Positions 33,088-53,052 of a stretch of 53,578 bases of DNA are shown here, piece by piece. The stretch is taken from the NCBI GenBank assembly GCA_003044455.1, contig POWY01000012.1:1-53578 (forward strand), given 5' to 3'. The notes below the pieces were generated by a model. That model did not search any database. It had not been told where the DNA came from and saw only the letters and a program-made list of their open reading frames with translations. The first letter of the stretch is position 1, and each line of letters begins with the position of its first letter. Position numbers and translations under genes: made by a program. Origin of the DNA: Neisseria bergeri (GTDB lineage Bacteria > Pseudomonadota > Gammaproteobacteria > Burkholderiales > Neisseriaceae).

Positions 33088-33104
33088 TTGATTCGATATT
33101 AAAA

Positions 33105-33133
33105 ATGCCGTCTGAAAGGTTTTCAGACGGCAT
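33105..33133 (+). terminator. Inverted DUS pair after the purine permease gene
   Basis: AAAA then ATGCCGTCTGAA, 5-nt loop, TTCAGACGGCAT then TTTTG: a textbook terminator-DUS hairpin. Confidence 0.85.
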
Positions 33134-33388
33134 TTTGTTTGCTGGTATATTTAATTTTTATTAAATTATATAAAAATCAAATATATAATAAACTACATCA
33201 GATTACTTGAAAATAATATATTGTTTTTATGTATAAAATATTTTATAAGTTTTCAGGATTTTGATTATTGAAAATTTTCTTGATTTCCTGATAATTTTAT
33301 CGGAAACAAATAAGTTAAAATTAATTCATTTAAATCATAGTGTTAAAATAAAATATTAAAATTATGTAATGAGTCTCCTTAAAAATGT
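33134..33388. other. AT-rich intergenic DNA upstream of the propionate operon promoter
   Basis: About 255 bp with very low GC and many A/T runs. No coding sequence seen. It may act as curved UP-element-like or regulator-binding DNA, but no defined site is recognisable. Confidence 0.5.
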
Positions 33389-33417
33389 TTGACATTTCCA
33401 GTCTTATGTTTTAGATT
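33389..33417 (+). promoter_or_regulatory. Promoter for the prpB leader
   Basis: TTGACA, 17-nt spacer, TAGATT: a perfect -35 with a good -10 and ideal spacing. Predicted start near 33424, giving a leader of about 285 nt before prpB that contains the small ORF at 33460. Confidence 0.7.
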
Positions 33418-33459
33418 ACCGAAAAATAAAACTACATAATACTACAAAGGAACATTACT

Positions 33460-33564
33460 ATGAAACCAATTCAGATGTTTTCCCTTTTTCTGAATAATCC
33501 CCTTGTTTTCTTCTTGTCTGCGGTTTTGCCGCATAATTCCGAACGGTCTGCTGTTTTTCTTTAA
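33460..33564 (+). CDS. Putative 34-residue leader peptide upstream of prpB
   Basis: ATG 33460 is preceded by AAAGGA with 8-nt spacing and opens a 34-codon frame ending TAA. The peptide starts MKPIQMFSLFLNNPL, has a hydrophobic middle (LVFFLSAVLP) and a polar end. It lies about 36 nt after the predicted transcription start and about 145 nt before prpB. It could be a regulatory leader or a small membrane peptide; no family is recognised. Confidence 0.4.
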   Translation: MKPIQMFSLFLNNPLVFFLSAVLPHNSERSAVFL

Positions 33565-33626
33565 TTCGTTCGAAATATCAATAAGATAATTGTTCCCATA
33601 TATTTTTCATGATTGGATTGGGATGC

Positions 33627-33638
33627 CCGACGCGTCGG
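33627..33638. promoter_or_regulatory. Perfect 12-bp GC-rich palindrome in the prpB leader
   Basis: CCGACGCGTCGG stands out in otherwise AT-rich leader DNA, 72 bp before prpB. Possible operator or RNA hairpin; the partner is unknown. Confidence 0.35.
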
Positions 33639-33709
33639 ATGGCTGTGTTTTGCCGTCCGAATGTGATGGAAGCCTGTCCATACTGAAAAAAAGTCTATAA
33701 AGGAGAAAT

Positions 33710-34672: not shown

Positions 34673-35827
34673 ATGACTGAAACTACTCAAACCCCGACTT
34701 TCAAACCTAAAAAATCCGTTGCGCTTTCTGGCGTTGCGGCCGGTAATACCGAATTGTGTACCGTTGGCCGTACCGGCAACGATTTGAGCTATCGCGGTTA
34801 CGACATCTTGGATTTGGCACAAAAATGCGAGTTTGAAGAAGTCGCCCACCTGCTGATTCACGGTCATCTGCCCAACAAATTCGAGCTGGCCGCTTATAAA
34901 ACCAAGCTCAAATCCATGCGCGGCCTGCCTATCCGTGTGATTAAAGTTTTGGAAAGCCTGCCTGCACATACCCATCCGATGGATGTGATGCGTACCGGCG
35001 TATCCATGCTGGGCTGCGTTCATCCTGAACGTGAAGGCCATCCGGAAAGTGAAGCGCGCGACATCGCCGACAAACTGATCGCCAGCCTCGGCAGCATCCT
35101 CTTGTACTGGTATCAATATTCGCACAACGGCAAACGCATTGAAGTTGAAAGCGAAGAAGAGACTATCGGCGGTCATTTCCTGCACCTGTTGCACGGCAAA
35201 CGCCCAAGCGAATCACACATCAAAGCCATGCACGTTTCACTGATTCTGTATGCGGAACACGAGTTCAACGCTTCTACCTTTACCGCCCGCGTGATTGCCG
35301 GTACAGGCTCTGATATGTACTCCAGCATTACCGGTGCAATCGGCGCGTTGAAAGGTCCGAAACACGGCGGTGCGAACGAAGTGGCTTACGATATTCAAAA
35401 ACGCTACCGCAATGCCGACGAAGCCGAAGCAGACATCCGCGAACGCATCGGCCGCAAAGAAATCGTGATCGGTTTCGGTCATCCGGTGTACACCATTTCC
35501 GACCCTCGCAACGTTGTCATTAAAGAAGTGGCACGCGGTTTGAGCAAAGAAACCGGCGATATGCGCCTCTTTGACATTGCCGAACGTTTGGAAAGCGTGA
35601 TGTGGGAAGAGAAAAAAATGTTCCCGAATCTGGACTGGTTCTCTGCCGTTTCCTACCAAAAATTGGGCGTACCGACCGCTATGTTCACACCGCTGTTCGT
35701 GATTTCCCGTACAACCGGTTGGAGCGCACACGTTCTCGAGCAACGCAAAGACGGCAAAATCATCCGTCCGAGCGCGAACTACACAGGCCCTGAAGATTTG
35801 GCGTTTGTGGAGATTGAAGAACGCTGA
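34673..35827 (+). CDS. prpC: 2-methylcitrate synthase PrpC
   Basis: Condenses propionyl-CoA with oxaloacetate to 2-methylcitrate. 384 aa of the citrate synthase family with the short methylcitrate-synthase architecture; [12 protein letters not shown] (near 226), [13 protein letters not shown] (near 268) and the C-terminal [12 protein letters not shown] (near 343) hold catalytic His/Asp and CoA-binding residues. GGAGAAATACC precedes the ATG. Its neighbours confirm 2-methylcitrate rather than plain citrate synthase. Confidence 0.95.
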
Positions 35828-36152
35828 GACGGAACACAACCGTAGGAGACCACCAATCGGATTTCAGACGACGTGTAGCGCGGGCTTTGCCTGCGGAAAA
35901 CTGAAACCCGCCTACGGTTCCGCTTTTCAGACGGCCTGTTGAAAGATGCGAGAGAGAAGGTTGTCTGAAAAACCAGCCGCAACGTCTGCCGTCATTCCCA
36001 CCCCCGCCTAAGCGAGGACAGGTCGCGGCGGGAATGGCGGAGGCAGCGCGGCAACTTTTTTCACGGTTCTGCCAAAATATGCTATGAAAGAATGTTCGTC
36101 AGCATAATGGAGATGAAGCCGATATTATAACTAATACGGAGAATTGTGGGAT
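35828..36152. repeat. Repeat-rich junction between prpC and the inserted desaturase gene
   Basis: No gene. Contains TTCAGACGACG (about 35862), the GTAGCGCGGGCTTTGC hairpin repeat (35875-35895), TTTTCAGACGGCC (about 35923), GTTGTCTGAA (about 35960) and a degenerate dRS3/NIME piece (35993-36036) that recurs inverted near 42520-42562. From about 36070 composition changes abruptly to AT-rich. Looks like an insertion junction. Confidence 0.7.
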
Positions 36153-37097
36153 ATGTACCATAAGAAATTTGATAAAGAAATTCTTTTAAAAATTAAAGAA
36201 TTATATAGATACGATAATTGGCATGCTGTACTTGCTATATTATATGATTATTTAATAATAATTTTTTCTATATTTTTATCTGAGCAGTCATATTGGTTTC
36301 TCCCTTTAACGATTTTATTAATAGGAAGCAGGCAAAGGGCGTTGGCAACAATTTTACATGAAGCCTCTCATTCTGCCTTAACTAAAAATAAGAAGTTTGG
36401 ACAAATTTTAGGTACATATTTTTCTGGATATTTAATTTTTCAAAGTTGGAATAGTTATTGTGTTTCTCATGTGAAGAATCATCATCCAAAGTTAGGGACT
36501 GATTCGGATCCTGATTATAAGTATTATAAAGACTCAGGTATTTTTCAGACATATTCAAGAATTGAATTTTTCTGGAGATTTTGTGTCTCTCAAATTTTAT
36601 GTTTGAAATTATTTAGGAATTTTAAATATTTAATTAAAAATAGATTATTTTCGGATATTACAAGAACAGAGTTGTTTAAGCTACTTCTTTCTCAATTAAT
36701 TCTATTTGTTATCGGTACATATTTTGTAGGGTATAAATTTTATGTAATTTATTGGTTATTACCATATTTAACTGCATTCCAGATGATAACTTGGTTTATT
36801 GAGTTGTCCGAGCATTATCCAATGATACAAACTGCCAAAAATAATTTAGAAGCGTCAAGAAATAGGTTTAGTCATGCAATAGAGCATTTTTTCACGGGGA
36901 TACATGGAGAAAATTATCATCTAATACATCATTTATTTCCAGCCATTCCATTTTGGAATTTGGAAAAAGCACATAAGATATTAATGAAAGATTTTGATTA
37001 TCAAGAGGTAAATAAAGATTTTGGAGGGATTTTCTTTTCGAAAAACAATAATGCACCTATGTGGAAAGTATTATGGAGTAAATATGAAGCTGCGTGA
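36153..37097 (+). CDS. Membrane fatty-acid-desaturase-family protein, very AT-rich
   Basis: 314 aa with hydrophobic helix pairs (about 27-60 and 185-220) and the three histidine clusters of the membrane di-iron desaturase/hydroxylase superfamily: HEASH (near 69), HVKNHH (near 107) and HLIHH in the C-terminal third (near 266), preceded by HAIEHFFTGIHGENYH. Substrate unknown: the superfamily includes fatty-acid desaturases and amino-acid-modifying enzymes such as RtxC of rhizobitoxine synthesis. ATG 36153 is used; TTG 36144 is possible. GC is far below its neighbours (many AAT, TTT, ATA codons), a sign of transfer. Its last 14 bp overlap the downstream transporter gene. Confidence 0.85.
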   Translation: MYHKKFDKEILLKIKELYRYDNWHAVLAILYDYLIIIFSIFLSEQSYWFLPLTILLIGSRQRALATILHEASHSALTKNKKFGQILGTYFSGYLIFQSWNSYCVSHVKNHHPKLGTDSDPDYKYYKDSGIFQTYSRIEFFWRFCVSQILCLKLFRNFKYLIKNRLFSDITRTELFKLLLSQLILFVIGTYFVGYKFYVIYWLLPYLTAFQMITWFIELSEHYPMIQTAKNNLEASRNRFSHAIEHFFTGIHGENYHLIHHLFPAIPFWNLEKAHKILMKDFDYQEVNKDFGGIFFSKNNNAPMWKVLWSKYEAA

Positions 37098-37995
37098 TTT
37101 ACTGATGGGAATATTCTTGGCAGTTTCTGCGGCCCTTCTGAATGCAACCATCGGCATATTCAGCAAGATATTGATGGAGCAGGGCTTGTCTGTTCAGCAT
37201 ATTGCATTTTTGAAAACTTTGACAGGTTTCGTGTTTATCAGCATTTTGCTTTGCCGTACCGGTTTTACCAGACAGATTGCGGATATTTCAAGAAAGAAAG
37301 AGGCAATTTTGCCGTTGCTGTTAAAAGTAGCAATTTGTGCTTTTTTCGGAATTTATACGTTGTTTTTCTTTGAAACCACAGCTTATCAATATGGCAATGC
37401 TGCGAATGTAGTAGTTGTATTAATGGCATCGGCTGCCGTATCTGCCTTGATATTGGACAGCATACTGTTAGATGAACGTATTTGCATTTCTTCAGTCGTC
37501 GGTGTGGGTTTGGCAGTATTGGGGATCGCAATGATTTCTTGGACTGGAGAAGGAAGTTTAGGGTTGATTCTGAATGCCGCACTGGCGGGCTCGGGCTACG
37601 GTTGTTTTTCCGTTTTGATTAAGAAATTCGGCCTAAACGGCGGTATTTATTTGACACGGATATTGATGTTTTTTGGAAGTATTTTTTTGTTTATCCCTTC
37701 ATTGGAAGGTATTGAGGATATACATTGGCAATGGTCTTTTATTCCGCCACTCTTGGCATTGTCTTTATTGCCGACGATTTTAGGATTTTATTGTACAACT
37801 AAAGCATTGGATTATTTGAGTGCTGCGAAGGTACAGGTAACTGAATTGGCCGAGCCATTGTTTGCTGCCGTACTGGCTTGGTTGTTTTTGAATGAAATAC
37901 CGGAAGGACGCTTCTTTGTCGGCGCCATTCTGATTATTGCCGGTATTGTGTCTATCAATGGGCTGTATCGACCATTGTTGAAGCGAATTGAATAA
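37084..37995 (+). CDS. EamA/DMT-family transporter
   Basis: 303 aa, about 10 transmembrane helices in two EamA repeats (about 5-140 and 150-295), typical of drug/metabolite exporters for amino acids or small metabolites. ATG 37084 lies inside the desaturase gene with GGAG 5 nt upstream, so translation is coupled. Composition is intermediate between the AT-rich desaturase and the surrounding genes. The coupling suggests it moves the substrate or product of the desaturase-family enzyme; this is inference. Confidence 0.88.
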   Translation: MKLRDLLMGIFLAVSAALLNATIGIFSKILMEQGLSVQHIAFLKTLTGFVFISILLCRTGFTRQIADISRKKEAILPLLLKVAICAFFGIYTLFFFETTAYQYGNAANVVVVLMASAAVSALILDSILLDERICISSVVGVGLAVLGIAMISWTGEGSLGLILNAALAGSGYGCFSVLIKKFGLNGGIYLTRILMFFGSIFLFIPSLEGIEDIHWQWSFIPPLLALSLLPTILGFYCTTKALDYLSAAKVQVTELAEPLFAAVLAWLFLNEIPEGRFFVGAILIIAGIVSINGLYRPLLKRIE

Positions 37996-38011: not shown

Positions 38012-38046
38012 TTTCAGACGACCTCTTCAACAAACGTCGTCTGAAA
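38012..38046 (+). repeat. GTCGTCTGAA-dialect inverted pair before acnD
   Basis: TTTCAGACGAC and GTCGTCTGAAA with a 13-nt loop, 17 bp after the transporter stop. Possible weak terminator; variant DUS dialect. Confidence 0.6.
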
Positions 38047-38085: not shown

Positions 38086-40692
38086 ATGGCTGCCAACCAA
38101 CGTTACCGCAAACCGCTGCCCGGTACGGATTTGGAATACTACGACGCGCGTGCGGCGTGTGAGGACATCAAGCCCGGCTCTTACGACAAGCTGCCTTACA
38201 CGAGCCGCATTTTGGCGGAGAATTTGGTCAACCGCGCGGACAAAGTCGATTTGCCGACGCTGCAAAGCTGGCTGGGTCAGCTGATTGAGGGAAAACAGGA
38301 AATCGACTTTCCTTGGTATCCGGCGCGGGTGGTGTGCCACGATATTCTGGGGCAGACCGCGTTGGTGGATTTGGCGGGCCTGCGCGATGCGATTGCGGAG
38401 AAGGGCGGCGATCCTGCCAAAGTGAATCCGGTGGTGCAAACCCAGCTCATTGTCGACCACTCTTTGGCCGTTGAATGCGGCGGTTACGATCCTGATGCCT
38501 TCCGCAAAAACCGCGAAATCGAAGACAGACGTAACGAAGACCGTTTCCACTTTATCAACTGGACAAAAACCGCATTTGAAAATGTGGACGTGATTCCGGC
38601 GGGCAACGGCATCATGCACCAAATCAATCTGGAAAAAATGTCGCCCGTCGTCCAAGTCAAAAACGGCGTGGCTTTCCCCGATACCTGCGTCGGTACTGAC
38701 TCACATACGCCGCACGTCGATTCATTGGGCGTGATTTCCGTGGGCGTGGGCGGATTGGAAGCGGAAACCGTAATGCTGGGACGCGCGTCCATGATGCGCC
38801 TACCCGATATTGTCGGCGTGGAGCTGACCGGCAAACGTCAGCCGGGCATTACTGCCACCGACATCGTGTTGGCGCTGACCGAATTCTTGCGTAAAGAGCG
38901 CGTGGTTGGCGCATTTGTCGAATTCTTCGGCGAAGGCGCAAGAAGCCTGTCTATCGGCGACCGTGCCACCATTTCCAACATGACCCCTGAGTTCGGCGCG
39001 ACTGCCGCGATGTTCGCTATTGATGAGCAAACCATTGATTATTTGAAACTGACCGGCCGCGACGACGCGCAAGTGAAATTGGTGGAAAACTATGCCAAAA
39101 CCGCAGGCTTGTGGGCAGATGCCTTGAAAACCGCCGTTTATCCTCGTGTTTTGAAATTTGATTTGAGCAGCGTAACACGCAACATGGCAGGCCCAAGTAA
39201 CCCGCATGCCCGTTTCGCGACCGCCGATTTGGCCGGCAAAGGCTTGGCTAAACCTTACGAAGAGCCTTCAGACGGCCAAATGCCCGACGGCGCGGTCATT
39301 ATCGCCGCGATTACCAGTTGCACCAACACCTCCAACCCGCGCAACGTCGTCGCCGCTGCACTTTTGGCGCGCAATGCCAACCGCTTCGGGCTGAAACGCA
39401 AACCGTGGGTCAAAACCTCGTTCGCCCCCGGCTCGAAAGTGGCGGAAATCTATTTGAAAGAAGCAGGCCTGTTGCCTGAAATGGAAAAACTCGGCTTCGG
39501 TATCGTCGCCTTCGCCTGCACCACCTGCAACGGCATGAGCGGCGCGCTCGACCCGAAAATCCAGAAAGAAATCATCGACCGCGATTTGTACGCCACCGCC
39601 GTATTGTCAGGCAACCGCAACTTCGACGGCCGTATCCATCCGTATGCGAAACAGGCTTTCCTCGCTTCGCCCCCGTTGGTCGTTGCCTACGCGCTGGCAG
39701 GCAGCATCCGTTTCGATATTGAAAACGACGTACTCGGCGTTGCAGACGGCCGCGAAATCCGCCTGAAAGACATCTGGCCGACCGATGAAGAAATCGATGC
39801 CGTCGTTGCCGAATATGTGAAACCGCAGCAATTCCGCGACGTGTATGTACCGATGTTCGACACCGGTAAAGCGCAAAAAGCCCCAAGCCCACTGTACGAT
39901 TGGCGTCCGATGTCCACCTATATCCGCCGCCCACCTTACTGGGAAGGCGCATTGGCAGGGGAACGCACATTAAGAGGTATGCGACCGCTGGCGATTTTGC
40001 CCGACAACATCACCACCGACCACATTTCGCCTTCCAACGCGATTCTGGCGGCGAGTGCTGCGGGCGAATATCTGGCAAAAATGGGTTTGCCGGAAGAAGA
40101 CTTCAATTCCTACGCCACCCACCGCGGCGACCACCTCACCGCCCAACGCGCCACCTTCGCCAATCCCAAATTGTTTAACGAGATGGTGAAAAACGAAGAC
40201 GGCAGCGTGCGCCAAGGCTCGCTCGCCCGCGTCGAACCCGAAGGCGAAACCATGCGCATGTGGGAAGCCATCGAAACCTATATGAACCGCAAACAGCCGC
40301 TCATCATCATCGCCGGCGCGGACTACGGACAGGGCTCCAGCCGCGACTGGGCGGCGAAAGGCGTGCGGCTGGCGGGCGTGGAAGCCATCGCAGCCGAAGG
40401 TTTCGAGCGCATCCACCGCACCAACCTCATCGGCATGGGCGTCTTGCCGCTGCAATTCAAACTCGGCACCAACCGCCACACCCTGCAACTGGACGGCACG
40501 GAAACCTACGATGTGGTCGGCGAACGCAAACCGCGCGGCGACCTGACCCTCGTCATCCACCGCAAAAACGGCGAAACCGTCGAAGTCCCCGTGACCTGCC
40601 GCCTCGATACCGCTGAAGAAGTGCTGGTGTACGAAGCCGGCGGCGTGCTGCAACGGTTTGCACAGGATTTTTTGGAAGGGAACGCGGCGTAG
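38086..40692 (+). CDS. acnD: Fe/S-dependent 2-methylisocitrate dehydratase AcnD
   Basis: Aconitase-family [4Fe-4S] enzyme (868 aa) that dehydrates 2-methylcitrate in the AcnD/PrpF variant of the methylcitrate cycle. Cluster ligands: Cys412 in SCTNTSNPRN, Cys478 and Cys481 in FACTTCNGMSG. The C-terminal swivel domain has GADYGQGSSRDWAAKG (near 745). Association with prpF, plus prpB and prpC upstream, identifies it as AcnD rather than housekeeping aconitase. Confidence 0.95.
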   Translation: MAANQRYRKPLPGTDLEYYDARAACEDIKPGSYDKLPYTSRILAENLVNRADKVDLPTLQSWLGQLIEGKQEIDFPWYPARVVCHDILGQTALVDLAGLRDAIAEKGGDPAKVNPVVQTQLIVDHSLAVECGGYDPDAFRKNREIEDRRNEDRFHFINWTKTAFENVDVIPAGNGIMHQINLEKMSPVVQVKNGVAFPDTCVGTDSHTPHVDSLGVISVGVGGLEAETVMLGRASMMRLPDIVGVELTGKRQPGITATDIVLALTEFLRKERVVGAFVEFFGEGARSLSIGDRATISNMTPEFGATAAMFAIDEQTIDYLKLTGRDDAQVKLVENYAKTAGLWADALKTAVYPRVLKFDLSSVTRNMAGPSNPHARFATADLAGKGLAKPYEEPSDGQMPDGAVIIAAITSCTNTSNPRNVVAAALLARNANRFGLKRKPWVKTSFAPGSKVAEIYLKEAGLLPEMEKLGFGIVAFACTTCNGMSGALDPKIQKEIIDRDLYATAVLSGNRNFDGRIHPYAKQAFLASPPLVVAYALAGSIRFDIENDVLGVADGREIRLKDIWPTDEEIDAVVAEYVKPQQFRDVYVPMFDTGKAQKAPSPLYDWRPMSTYIRRPPYWEGALAGERTLRGMRPLAILPDNITTDHISPSNAILAASAAGEYLAKMGLPEEDFNSYATHRGDHLTAQRATFANPKLFNEMVKNEDGSVRQGSLARVEPEGETMRMWEAIETYMNRKQPLIIIAGADYGQGSSRDWAAKGVRLAGVEAIAAEGFERIHRTNLIGMGVLPLQFKLGTNRHTLQLDGTETYDVVGERKPRGDLTLVIHRKNGETVEVPVTCRLDTAEEVLVYEAGGVLQRFAQDFLEGNAA

Positions 40693-52681: not shown

Positions 52682-53052
52682 CTAATTATCTTGCTCTTTA
52701 ATCATATAATTATCAAATTCCCAAATTGCAAATTTATTAAATTTTTCAGCTAGAACCTCCCAATTATCGGCTTCAATTTCGGATAATAATTTATTTATGC
52801 AATCTAATAAAATATTAAAATTATAACTTTCCATAATTAAAAAACCTCTAGGAAATAAATTGCCTGAACAGTTCTCTAATAACCATTTTGGTGTGCAAAT
52901 ATTCATATCGAATAAATCAGCCGCCCCACTGCCATAATCATCTCCAACTAATAATTTCACAGATAGAAAAAAGTTATTTGGTTCATTAGGCGAATATGTG
53001 TTCAAAGGTCCATCTATATCTAATGAATATATTTTTTTAATATCATTTTCAT
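52682..53052 (-). pseudogene. Imm8-family immunity protein gene, frameshifted in an A7 tract
   Basis: The main frame encodes 107 residues from 53005 (NTYSPNEPNNFF...), resembling Imm8 immunity proteins (PNEPNNFF and CTPKWLLEN segments). The natural start is ATG 53052, behind AAGGATTAACT, reading MKMILKK; after a run of seven A (53032-53038) it hits TAG, while one extra A would give MKMILKKIYSLDIDGPLNTYS and join the long frame. So the gene is broken by, or switchable at, a homopolymer. Very AT-rich. It follows a toxin-like C-terminal remnant on the same strand. Confidence 0.6.

Follow-up and report, generated by a model that had tools for sequence, protein, structure and literature searches.

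What do two overlapping genes between prpC and acnD do in Neisseria bergeri, and why do they stand among genes for propionate use? We addressed this question in a 53,578-nt stretch of its genome (GCA_003044455.1, contig POWY01000012.1, positions 1 to 53,578 of the forward strand; hereafter the window). A first-pass annotation had reported there a desaturase-family gene followed by an EamA gene whose start codon lies inside the first, and the arrangement was correct in its positions, with an overlap of 14 nt: the first open reading frame (ORF) is intact (ATG at 36153, TGA at 37095-37097), and the exporter gene starts at the ATG at 37084 and ends at 37995. The enzyme scored 515.9 bits against NCBIfam NF041365 (GntB, L-arginine gamma-(S)-hydroxylase equivalog; cut-off 380), and the exporter 115 bits, in two stretches, against PF00892 (EamA). 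By these profiles the enzyme is a membrane di-iron enzyme of the GntB family and not a lipid desaturase, and we refer to the two genes as gntB and DMT. We found that gntB-DMT is a co-inherited mobile two-gene module, and that other genomes often have an intact DMT next to which gntB is absent or damaged, a pattern that the first-pass annotation had missed. As a whole, we read the pair as a mobile antimetabolite producer (GntB) with a self-immunity exporter (DMT), an interpretation that we place just on the probable side of even.

Plasmids of Peribacillus, Priestia, and Salmonella gave the first examples of the pair, and a pattern scan of genome contigs (the best 80 of 82 loci) added pairs in Acinetobacter, a Neisseriaceae bacterium, Pseudomonas, Paenibacillus, Bacillus, Campylobacter, Tenebrionibacter, and a metagenome-assembled genome (MAG). 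By the first-pass annotation's own criterion, its reading would have fallen if the two genes never co-occurred elsewhere; instead, they are adjacent in 15 compared loci including the window, four of them on plasmids, in ten named genera and others, and the module spans Neisseriaceae, Acinetobacter, Pseudomonas, Campylobacter, Bacilli, and Enterobacterales. The genes overlap by 14 nt in the window, both Salmonella plasmid pairs, and Tenebrionibacter, and by 4-11 nt in ten other pairs (L084 was excluded because the exporter start used there is not a start codon), and translational coupling across the 14-nt overlap is likely from this layout. Across the 15 loci, some of which are near relatives, the distance matrices of gntB and DMT were strongly correlated (r 0.95, Mantel p 0.0001). 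Two further loci are not counted among the 15 pairs: P. vranovensis (L160) and Variovorax (L133), where gntB is in two pieces and DMT has an open frame of 295 aa. Full gntB of the pair clades without this DMT was seen twice, in Aneurinibacillus (L088) and in the MAG L092, both near other exporters: AzlC-AzlD in front of gntB in the former, and another EamA beyond a divergent gene in the latter. No match to the pair was found in the phages searched, and none of 34 pattern matches in viral contigs was confirmed, so phage cargo was rejected as an explanation; likewise, the E. coli genomes gave no DNA match to the Tenebrionibacter module.

The distribution of the exporter beyond the pairs was determined from DMT profile matches at E <=1e-40, centre genomes included, in one genome per species, so that all frequencies refer to species and not to strains. 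Positive genomes numbered 5/49 in Campylobacter, at least 15/149 in Acinetobacter, at least 29/249 in Pseudomonas, and 5/44 in Bacillus; the Pseudomonas and Acinetobacter counts are lower bounds since 9 or 15 candidates were scored per genome. The 29 Pseudomonas comprised two full pairs, 25 intact DMT without a full gntB (16 of them with gntB traces of varying extent, one weak), one broken DMT with a gntB remnant, and one divergent DMT (G686, L216; 38% to a Paenibacillus DMT) that was set aside as another lineage. Among the 15 Acinetobacter there were one full pair, 12 intact DMT without a full gntB, and two damaged DMT. In front of each of the 12 lone exporters, the 3' end of gntB persists over 47 nt or more. 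Exporter-only genomes therefore stand to full pairs as 25 to 2 and 12 to 1 in the sampled species of the two genera. In one A. baumannii record (of four with a match), the genes on either side of the lone DMT are those that flank the pair in A. calcoaceticus. The five Campylobacter comprised one full pair, two genomes without gntB, one frameshifted gntB with a 291-aa DMT ORF, and one with both genes broken. In Neisseria genome G028 the last 38 residues' worth of gntB remain before a DMT 96% identical to that of the window, and gntB remnants also lie ahead of an intact DMT in Moraxella bovoculi and Brenneria. The Moraxella remnant and its DMT (L157:6279-8336) stand between two genes read as nuoB and nuoCD, which would put the pair inside the nuo operon.

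The kept exporters are constrained. For DMT without gntB, median dN/dS was 0.046 in 13 Acinetobacter, of which one is A. baumannii, and 0.089 in 26 Pseudomonas (P. frederiksbergensis L161 included), in a DMT set that omits L176, L189, L216, and L269 for a missing start; the window exporter gave 0.099 against G028 and 0.133 against Neisseria G069. Intact gntB gave 0.06-0.10 in the six usable of eight comparisons, two being saturated, including window versus Acinetobacter. Both genes are thus constrained where present, and DMT stays under purifying selection where gntB is gone. Family membership, co-inheritance, repeated absence or decay of gntB beside a kept DMT, and selection on both genes are all observed, and the pattern expected of a producer and its immunity gene, with the protecting gene kept and selected where the producer gene is lost, was found in several genera but not in Bacillus.

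We propose the following scheme, in which substrate, export direction, toxicity, and ecological role are inferred. Ferredoxin probably feeds the integral-membrane di-iron enzyme GntB, which would oxidise a free amino acid. The most likely reaction converts L-arginine to (S)-gamma-hydroxy-L-arginine; oxidation of another amino acid at its beta or gamma carbons is less likely. The co-translated DMT protein would export the product, which would probably act as an antimetabolite toward neighbours, so that the exporter would be the producer's immunity. Lineages that drop the enzyme and keep the exporter would become resistant non-producers, and retention of a lone exporter is expected if it protects against product made by others. 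In Neisseria, the module would ride in an exchangeable prpC-acnD slot and probably be transcribed with the prp operon. More tentatively, at somewhat less than an even chance in our judgement, the pair may represent a minimal small-molecule warfare system in at least three phyla (Pseudomonadota, Bacillota, Campylobacterota), in which one oxygenase makes an antimetabolite from a universal amino acid, one exporter gives immunity, and exporter-only resistant species outnumber producers among the sampled Pseudomonas and Acinetobacter, as a small-molecule counterpart of colicin producer/immune/sensitive dynamics. If the scheme is right, the module would be among the smallest antimetabolite systems, with commensals and pathogens as carriers, and it would explain the conserved partnerless EamA exporters of Acinetobacter and Pseudomonas.

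Several observations weigh against this scheme. Nine of the 25 lone Pseudomonas DMT have no gntB trace, and the two Campylobacter without gntB share a match over just 15 nt before DMT, maybe a ribosome-binding sequence; in both cases loss is parsimonious and not proven. The loss pattern is absent from Bacillus (four of five positives with the full pair, one DMT fragment), and P. vranovensis, G739, G500, G573, G666, and G1175 have a DMT that is itself damaged or incomplete. DMT-only genomes come from DMT-anchored searches, and the gntB-anchored counterpart covers Pseudomonas and the pattern scan. The enzyme tree does not resolve its deep branches, gamma-hydroxyarginine is not known to have antibacterial activity, and no assay of a pair-type enzyme was found in the open-licence literature. 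The counter-search itself gave matches at 1e-15 in 47 of 249 Pseudomonas; the 12 matches above 350 bits were the two pairs and ten others, none of which adjoins a DMT match. The surroundings of nine of these ten were listed and are of other kinds, and the four that were placed in the tree fell outside the pair clades.

The main alternative is that DMT is an independently useful amino-acid exporter, for overflow or for relief from plant or host analogues, with gntB as an expendable passenger and no toxin-immunity relation. EamA proteins often export ordinary amino acids, lone DMT are common and conserved in Pseudomonas and Acinetobacter, and Neisseria G069 carries a 55% identical DMT in its prp operon with no gntB trace. 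This explanation is nevertheless somewhat unlikely, as DMT distances track gntB distances, and as the partners of related enzymes point the same way. Rhizobium and Mesorhizobium have rhizobitoxine-like clusters in which a DMT of this family lies about 2 kb downstream of the enzyme gene, and other gntB relatives adjoin unrelated amino-acid exporters: LysE is beside or near them on a staphylococcal plasmid, in Halomonas, in Robbsia, and in a rhizobitoxine-like Pseudomonas cluster, and in Pseudomonas an MFS gene lies in the same cluster as a gntB relative. The Robbsia, Rhizobium, and Mesorhizobium clusters were presumed from gene content to be rhizobitoxine clusters. From such partners we infer that the DMT protein would export an amino-acid product.

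Related gene settings were also noted in passing. In Pseudomonas L255, L256, L257, L261, L262, and also L258 and L260, a GntB-like enzyme is encoded in one cluster together with ATP-grasp, MFS, and class-V aminotransferase genes (Pfam domains determined for L257 only). This cluster may specify a pathway to a dipeptide antimetabolite. A DUF2000 gene stands near a gntB-type gene in two unrelated loci (L099:8858-9718 and L046:945-1541).

For the enzyme reaction, the producer-immunity reading starts from GntB, and the alternative is an RtxC-like desaturase that makes a beta,gamma-unsaturated amino acid of the vinylglycine type. The first-pass annotation, which had described a membrane di-iron enzyme next to a protein of a metabolite-exporter family, was borne out by the EamA match and by the complete histidine set (H69/H73, H106/H110/H111, H221, H251, H256/H259/H260), conserved except for H251 in at least 95% of 89 aligned sequences. 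Its suggestion of kinship with RtxC held at 37-39% identity, and the membrane di-iron fold family performs both hydroxylation and desaturation; its first choice of an RtxC-like substrate was not supported. Over 310 aa, the window enzyme shares 45.2% identity with the GntB encoded in a gnt-type cluster of genome G973, a protein that itself scores 495 bits against NF041365, whereas the RtxC-like protein of G104 scores 302 bits, below the cut-off. The third box reads HxENxH, as in GntC-linked enzymes, with H251 and E253 where 95-96% of RtxC types have N and D. Three columns discriminate (A63, H251, E253), being at least 90% conserved within the pair (15 rows) and within the RtxC type (55 rows) but with a different residue in each, with 12 other rows excluded; in 3/3 the window and seven GntC-linked rows agree with the pair against the RtxC types. 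Desaturation of the RtxC kind is accordingly unlikely, and the window enzyme is probably an L-arginine gamma-hydroxylase, as far as profile and motif can tell. Three of the 15 pairs have a gene for a 2Fe-2S ferredoxin in front of gntB (a Salmonella plasmid and Tenebrionibacter by Pfam, the second Salmonella plasmid, L076, by motif only), as does Aquimarina (Pfam), which fits an oxygenase fed by ferredoxin; a ferredoxin motif was not found beside the Neisseria gntB. The AlphaFold model of the enzyme (pLDDT 93.7) gave best Foldseek matches to chains of two FtsHi motor complexes (8xks_K, TM 0.61; 8xqw_M, TM 0.60) and a weak one to the alkane monooxygenase FtAlkB (TM 0.45, E 1.6e-3). The exporter model (pLDDT 92.1) has a DMT fold, with its best match in 5i20 (TM 0.74), the amino-acid exporter YddG, and a sequence search of solved structures returned two chance-like matches for the enzyme and none for the exporter.

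According to the available text of PMC10367076, GntB is a transmembrane enzyme of Sphaerospermopsis torques-reginae ITEP-024 that makes (S)-gamma-hydroxy-L-arginine, which GntC cyclises. In the source genome of the window, the only other gnt gene searched genome-wide was GntC, and there was no convincing one: the matches, which cover part of the protein at 24-30% identity, resemble ordinary aminotransferases, the best being 27% identical over residues 71-364 of 370. The window gntB does not belong to a guanitoxin cluster, its neighbours being prp genes, and guanitoxin production is not expected. Pair-type enzymes on Peribacillus and Priestia plasmids are publicly annotated as 'guanitoxin biosynthesis L-arginine gamma (S) hydroxylase'; if our reading is true, their real product is an unknown exported amino acid. 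In G973 (L252), gntB lies inside a multi-gene gnt-type cluster, with a gene order that we take to agree with the published pathway. Its GntC scores 394 against a cut-off of 415 (NF041364), so that a GntC in a gnt-type cluster falls under the curated cut-off and the window enzyme, outside any gnt cluster, passes that for GntB; automatic names can therefore mislead. In the cyanobacterial loci L089, L095, L098, and L100, the order large gene, gntB, GntC-like, SDR-like suggests enduracididine-containing peptides, with the GntC-like assignment checked for L098 and the large gene read by eye as non-ribosomal peptide synthetase (NRPS)-like.

The position of the pair raises a further explanation, an accessory of propionate or 2-ketobutyrate metabolism comparable to kbuT. 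The pair had already been published in Neisseria meningitidis, which the first-pass annotation had missed: as given in the available text of PMC12671195, the prpC-acnD region of 128 genomes holds kbuT in 41, gntB-DMT in 11, M15-DUF819 in 75, and one rearrangement, so the slot is shared with an alpha-ketobutyrate transporter gene, kbuT, which is the subject of that Neisseria-only study. Strain MC58 has NMB0432 in this slot, and its prp genes are reported to be expressed together as one operon (PMC4441257, available text). C. coli LMG 9860 has the gene order prpB-prpC-prpD-gntB-DMT, and prpD is directly upstream in 5/5 Campylobacter DMT loci, the position of prpB and prpC being known for one genome. 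On the other side, no prp genes (by annotation or ORF reading) were found at the loci of Acinetobacter, Pseudomonas, Paenibacillus, Bacillus, Tenebrionibacter, Peribacillus, Priestia, and one Salmonella plasmid, and the chance of one in about 11 other lineages landing in prp is about 4% by a rough, after-the-fact estimate, which leaves the coincidence as weak evidence. A metabolic accessory is thus quite unlikely, and the prp link was set aside as functional proof, striking as the Campylobacter case is. Propionate may still be a cue for expression of the pair, on the weak evidence of this shared position. An ordinary lipid desaturase with an unrelated transporter neighbour, and with it the lipid-modification option of the first-pass annotation, is hardly credible and was rejected: PF00487 (FA_desaturase) is matched with 121 bits, but the DesA profile gives 20.2 bits against a cut-off of 500, the exporter neighbourhood is conserved in 15 loci, and gntB relatives are found in amino-acid and NRPS clusters.

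How the module reached this slot can be partly traced. The closest gntB relatives are those of Acinetobacter (65%) and a Neisseriaceae bacterium (61%), with 69% for the best segment of the broken Moraxella copy, and in the enzyme tree the window groups with Acinetobacter and Neisseriaceae ESL0693 (support 99/97). Within the genus, the gntB profile hit 1 of 46 genomes at E <=1e-5 (the G028 remnant, found by protein search, is below this), and strong DMT matches occur in the window genome, G028, and G069, with 17 further genomes weak at <=33 bits. Identity to G028 is 88% for prpC and 91.5% over 1406 columns for the first part of acnD (both nucleotide), and the GTCGTCTGAA cores found in the window at 35863, 38013, and 38036 have counterparts at matching places there (L017). 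Since these cores and a 96% identical EamA protein are shared, the latest transfer of the pair probably occurred inside Neisseria, though gntB itself is closest to Acinetobacter, Moraxella, and Neisseriaceae; of the foreign origin claimed by the first-pass annotation, a horizontal origin stands, and a most recent step from outside the genus probably does not. The slot of G069 (L018) has yet another content: a protein with a sub-threshold Ricin_B_lectin match, the 55% identical DMT, and a second EamA gene.

The composition and flanks of the locus (Table 1) agreed with the first-pass description of an enzyme gene far more AT-rich than its surroundings and flanked by NIME and variant DNA uptake sequence (DUS) debris. 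GC content is 27.9% for gntB (GC3 22%), 41.4% for the exporter gene, 51.9% for prpC, 57.7% for acnD, and 52.4% for the window. However, the order gntB, then its own DMT, then the rest of the locus holds from lowest GC upward in 15/15 pairs, so part of the AT bias may be intrinsic, and AT-richness as a purely foreign-source signature was dropped. DUS-like cores lie on both sides of the pair, at 35863 (-), 35926 (-), 38013 (-), and 38036 (+); we take the GTCGTCTGAA cores for the mucosa-type DUS dialect and the dRS3-type repeat for a NIME element. Among the 38 window ORFs of at least 100 aa (overlaps thinned), the sole other one as AT-rich as gntB is a 324-nt ORF (52682-53005, minus strand, 28% GC), with a protein that presumably resembles Imm8-type immunity proteins. 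The 622 nt upstream of prpB (33088-33709) are also AT-rich, about 27-33% GC in 500-nt windows, without an ORF of 60 aa, and may form an extended leader or a promoter region for the prp operon.

Table 1. Positions of the gntB-DMT pair and adjoining features in the window
Feature	Position	Strand	Evidence
gntB-type membrane di-iron amino-acid hydroxylase (predicted), 314 aa	36153..37097	+	NF041365, PF00487, AlphaFold model
EamA/DMT-family exporter, 303 aa; putative role in product export and self-immunity	37084..37995	+	PF00892, fold match
Overlap gntB/DMT, 14 nt	37084..37097	+	ORF positions
prpC (2-methylcitrate synthase), upstream neighbour	34673..35827	+	ORF; name from published prp cluster (PMC4441257, available text)
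acnD, downstream neighbour	38086..40692	+	ORF; name from published prp cluster (PMC4441257, PMC12671195, available text)
dRS3-type repeat in prpC-gntB gap	35994..36035	.	pattern ATTCCC...GGGAAT
Inverted pair of GTCGTCTGAA uptake-sequence cores behind exporter gene	38013..38045	.	also in G028

Compared with known systems, the window pair matches the gntB-DMT configuration of N. meningitidis in its two gene families and its place, and the present analysis extends to other bacteria what that study, in its available text, treats for Neisseria and without a function for gntB-DMT (PMC12671195). The module status outside Neisseria, of which no description was found in the open-licence literature, and the loss of the enzyme beside a kept exporter are new here, and the purpose of the variable meningococcal slot and an amino-acid product as mediator of nasopharyngeal competition become testable. 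The enzyme resembles GntB of guanitoxin biosynthesis in its His motifs, third-box signature, and score above the curated cut-off; unlike there, the window gntB is not followed by GntC and has an exporter as partner instead. Rhizobitoxine-like clusters share the membrane enzyme superfamily and an amino-acid exporter in the cluster, but their RtxC types mostly differ at residues 251 and 253 and their pathway is multi-gene. Colicin-like toxin-immunity loci can leave orphan immunity genes, and the gntB-DMT module is similar to them in that the producer gene is lost and the protecting gene kept; it differs in pairing a small-molecule enzyme with an exporter, where colicin-type loci pair a protein toxin with a binding immunity protein, and in that its toxicity is a prediction.

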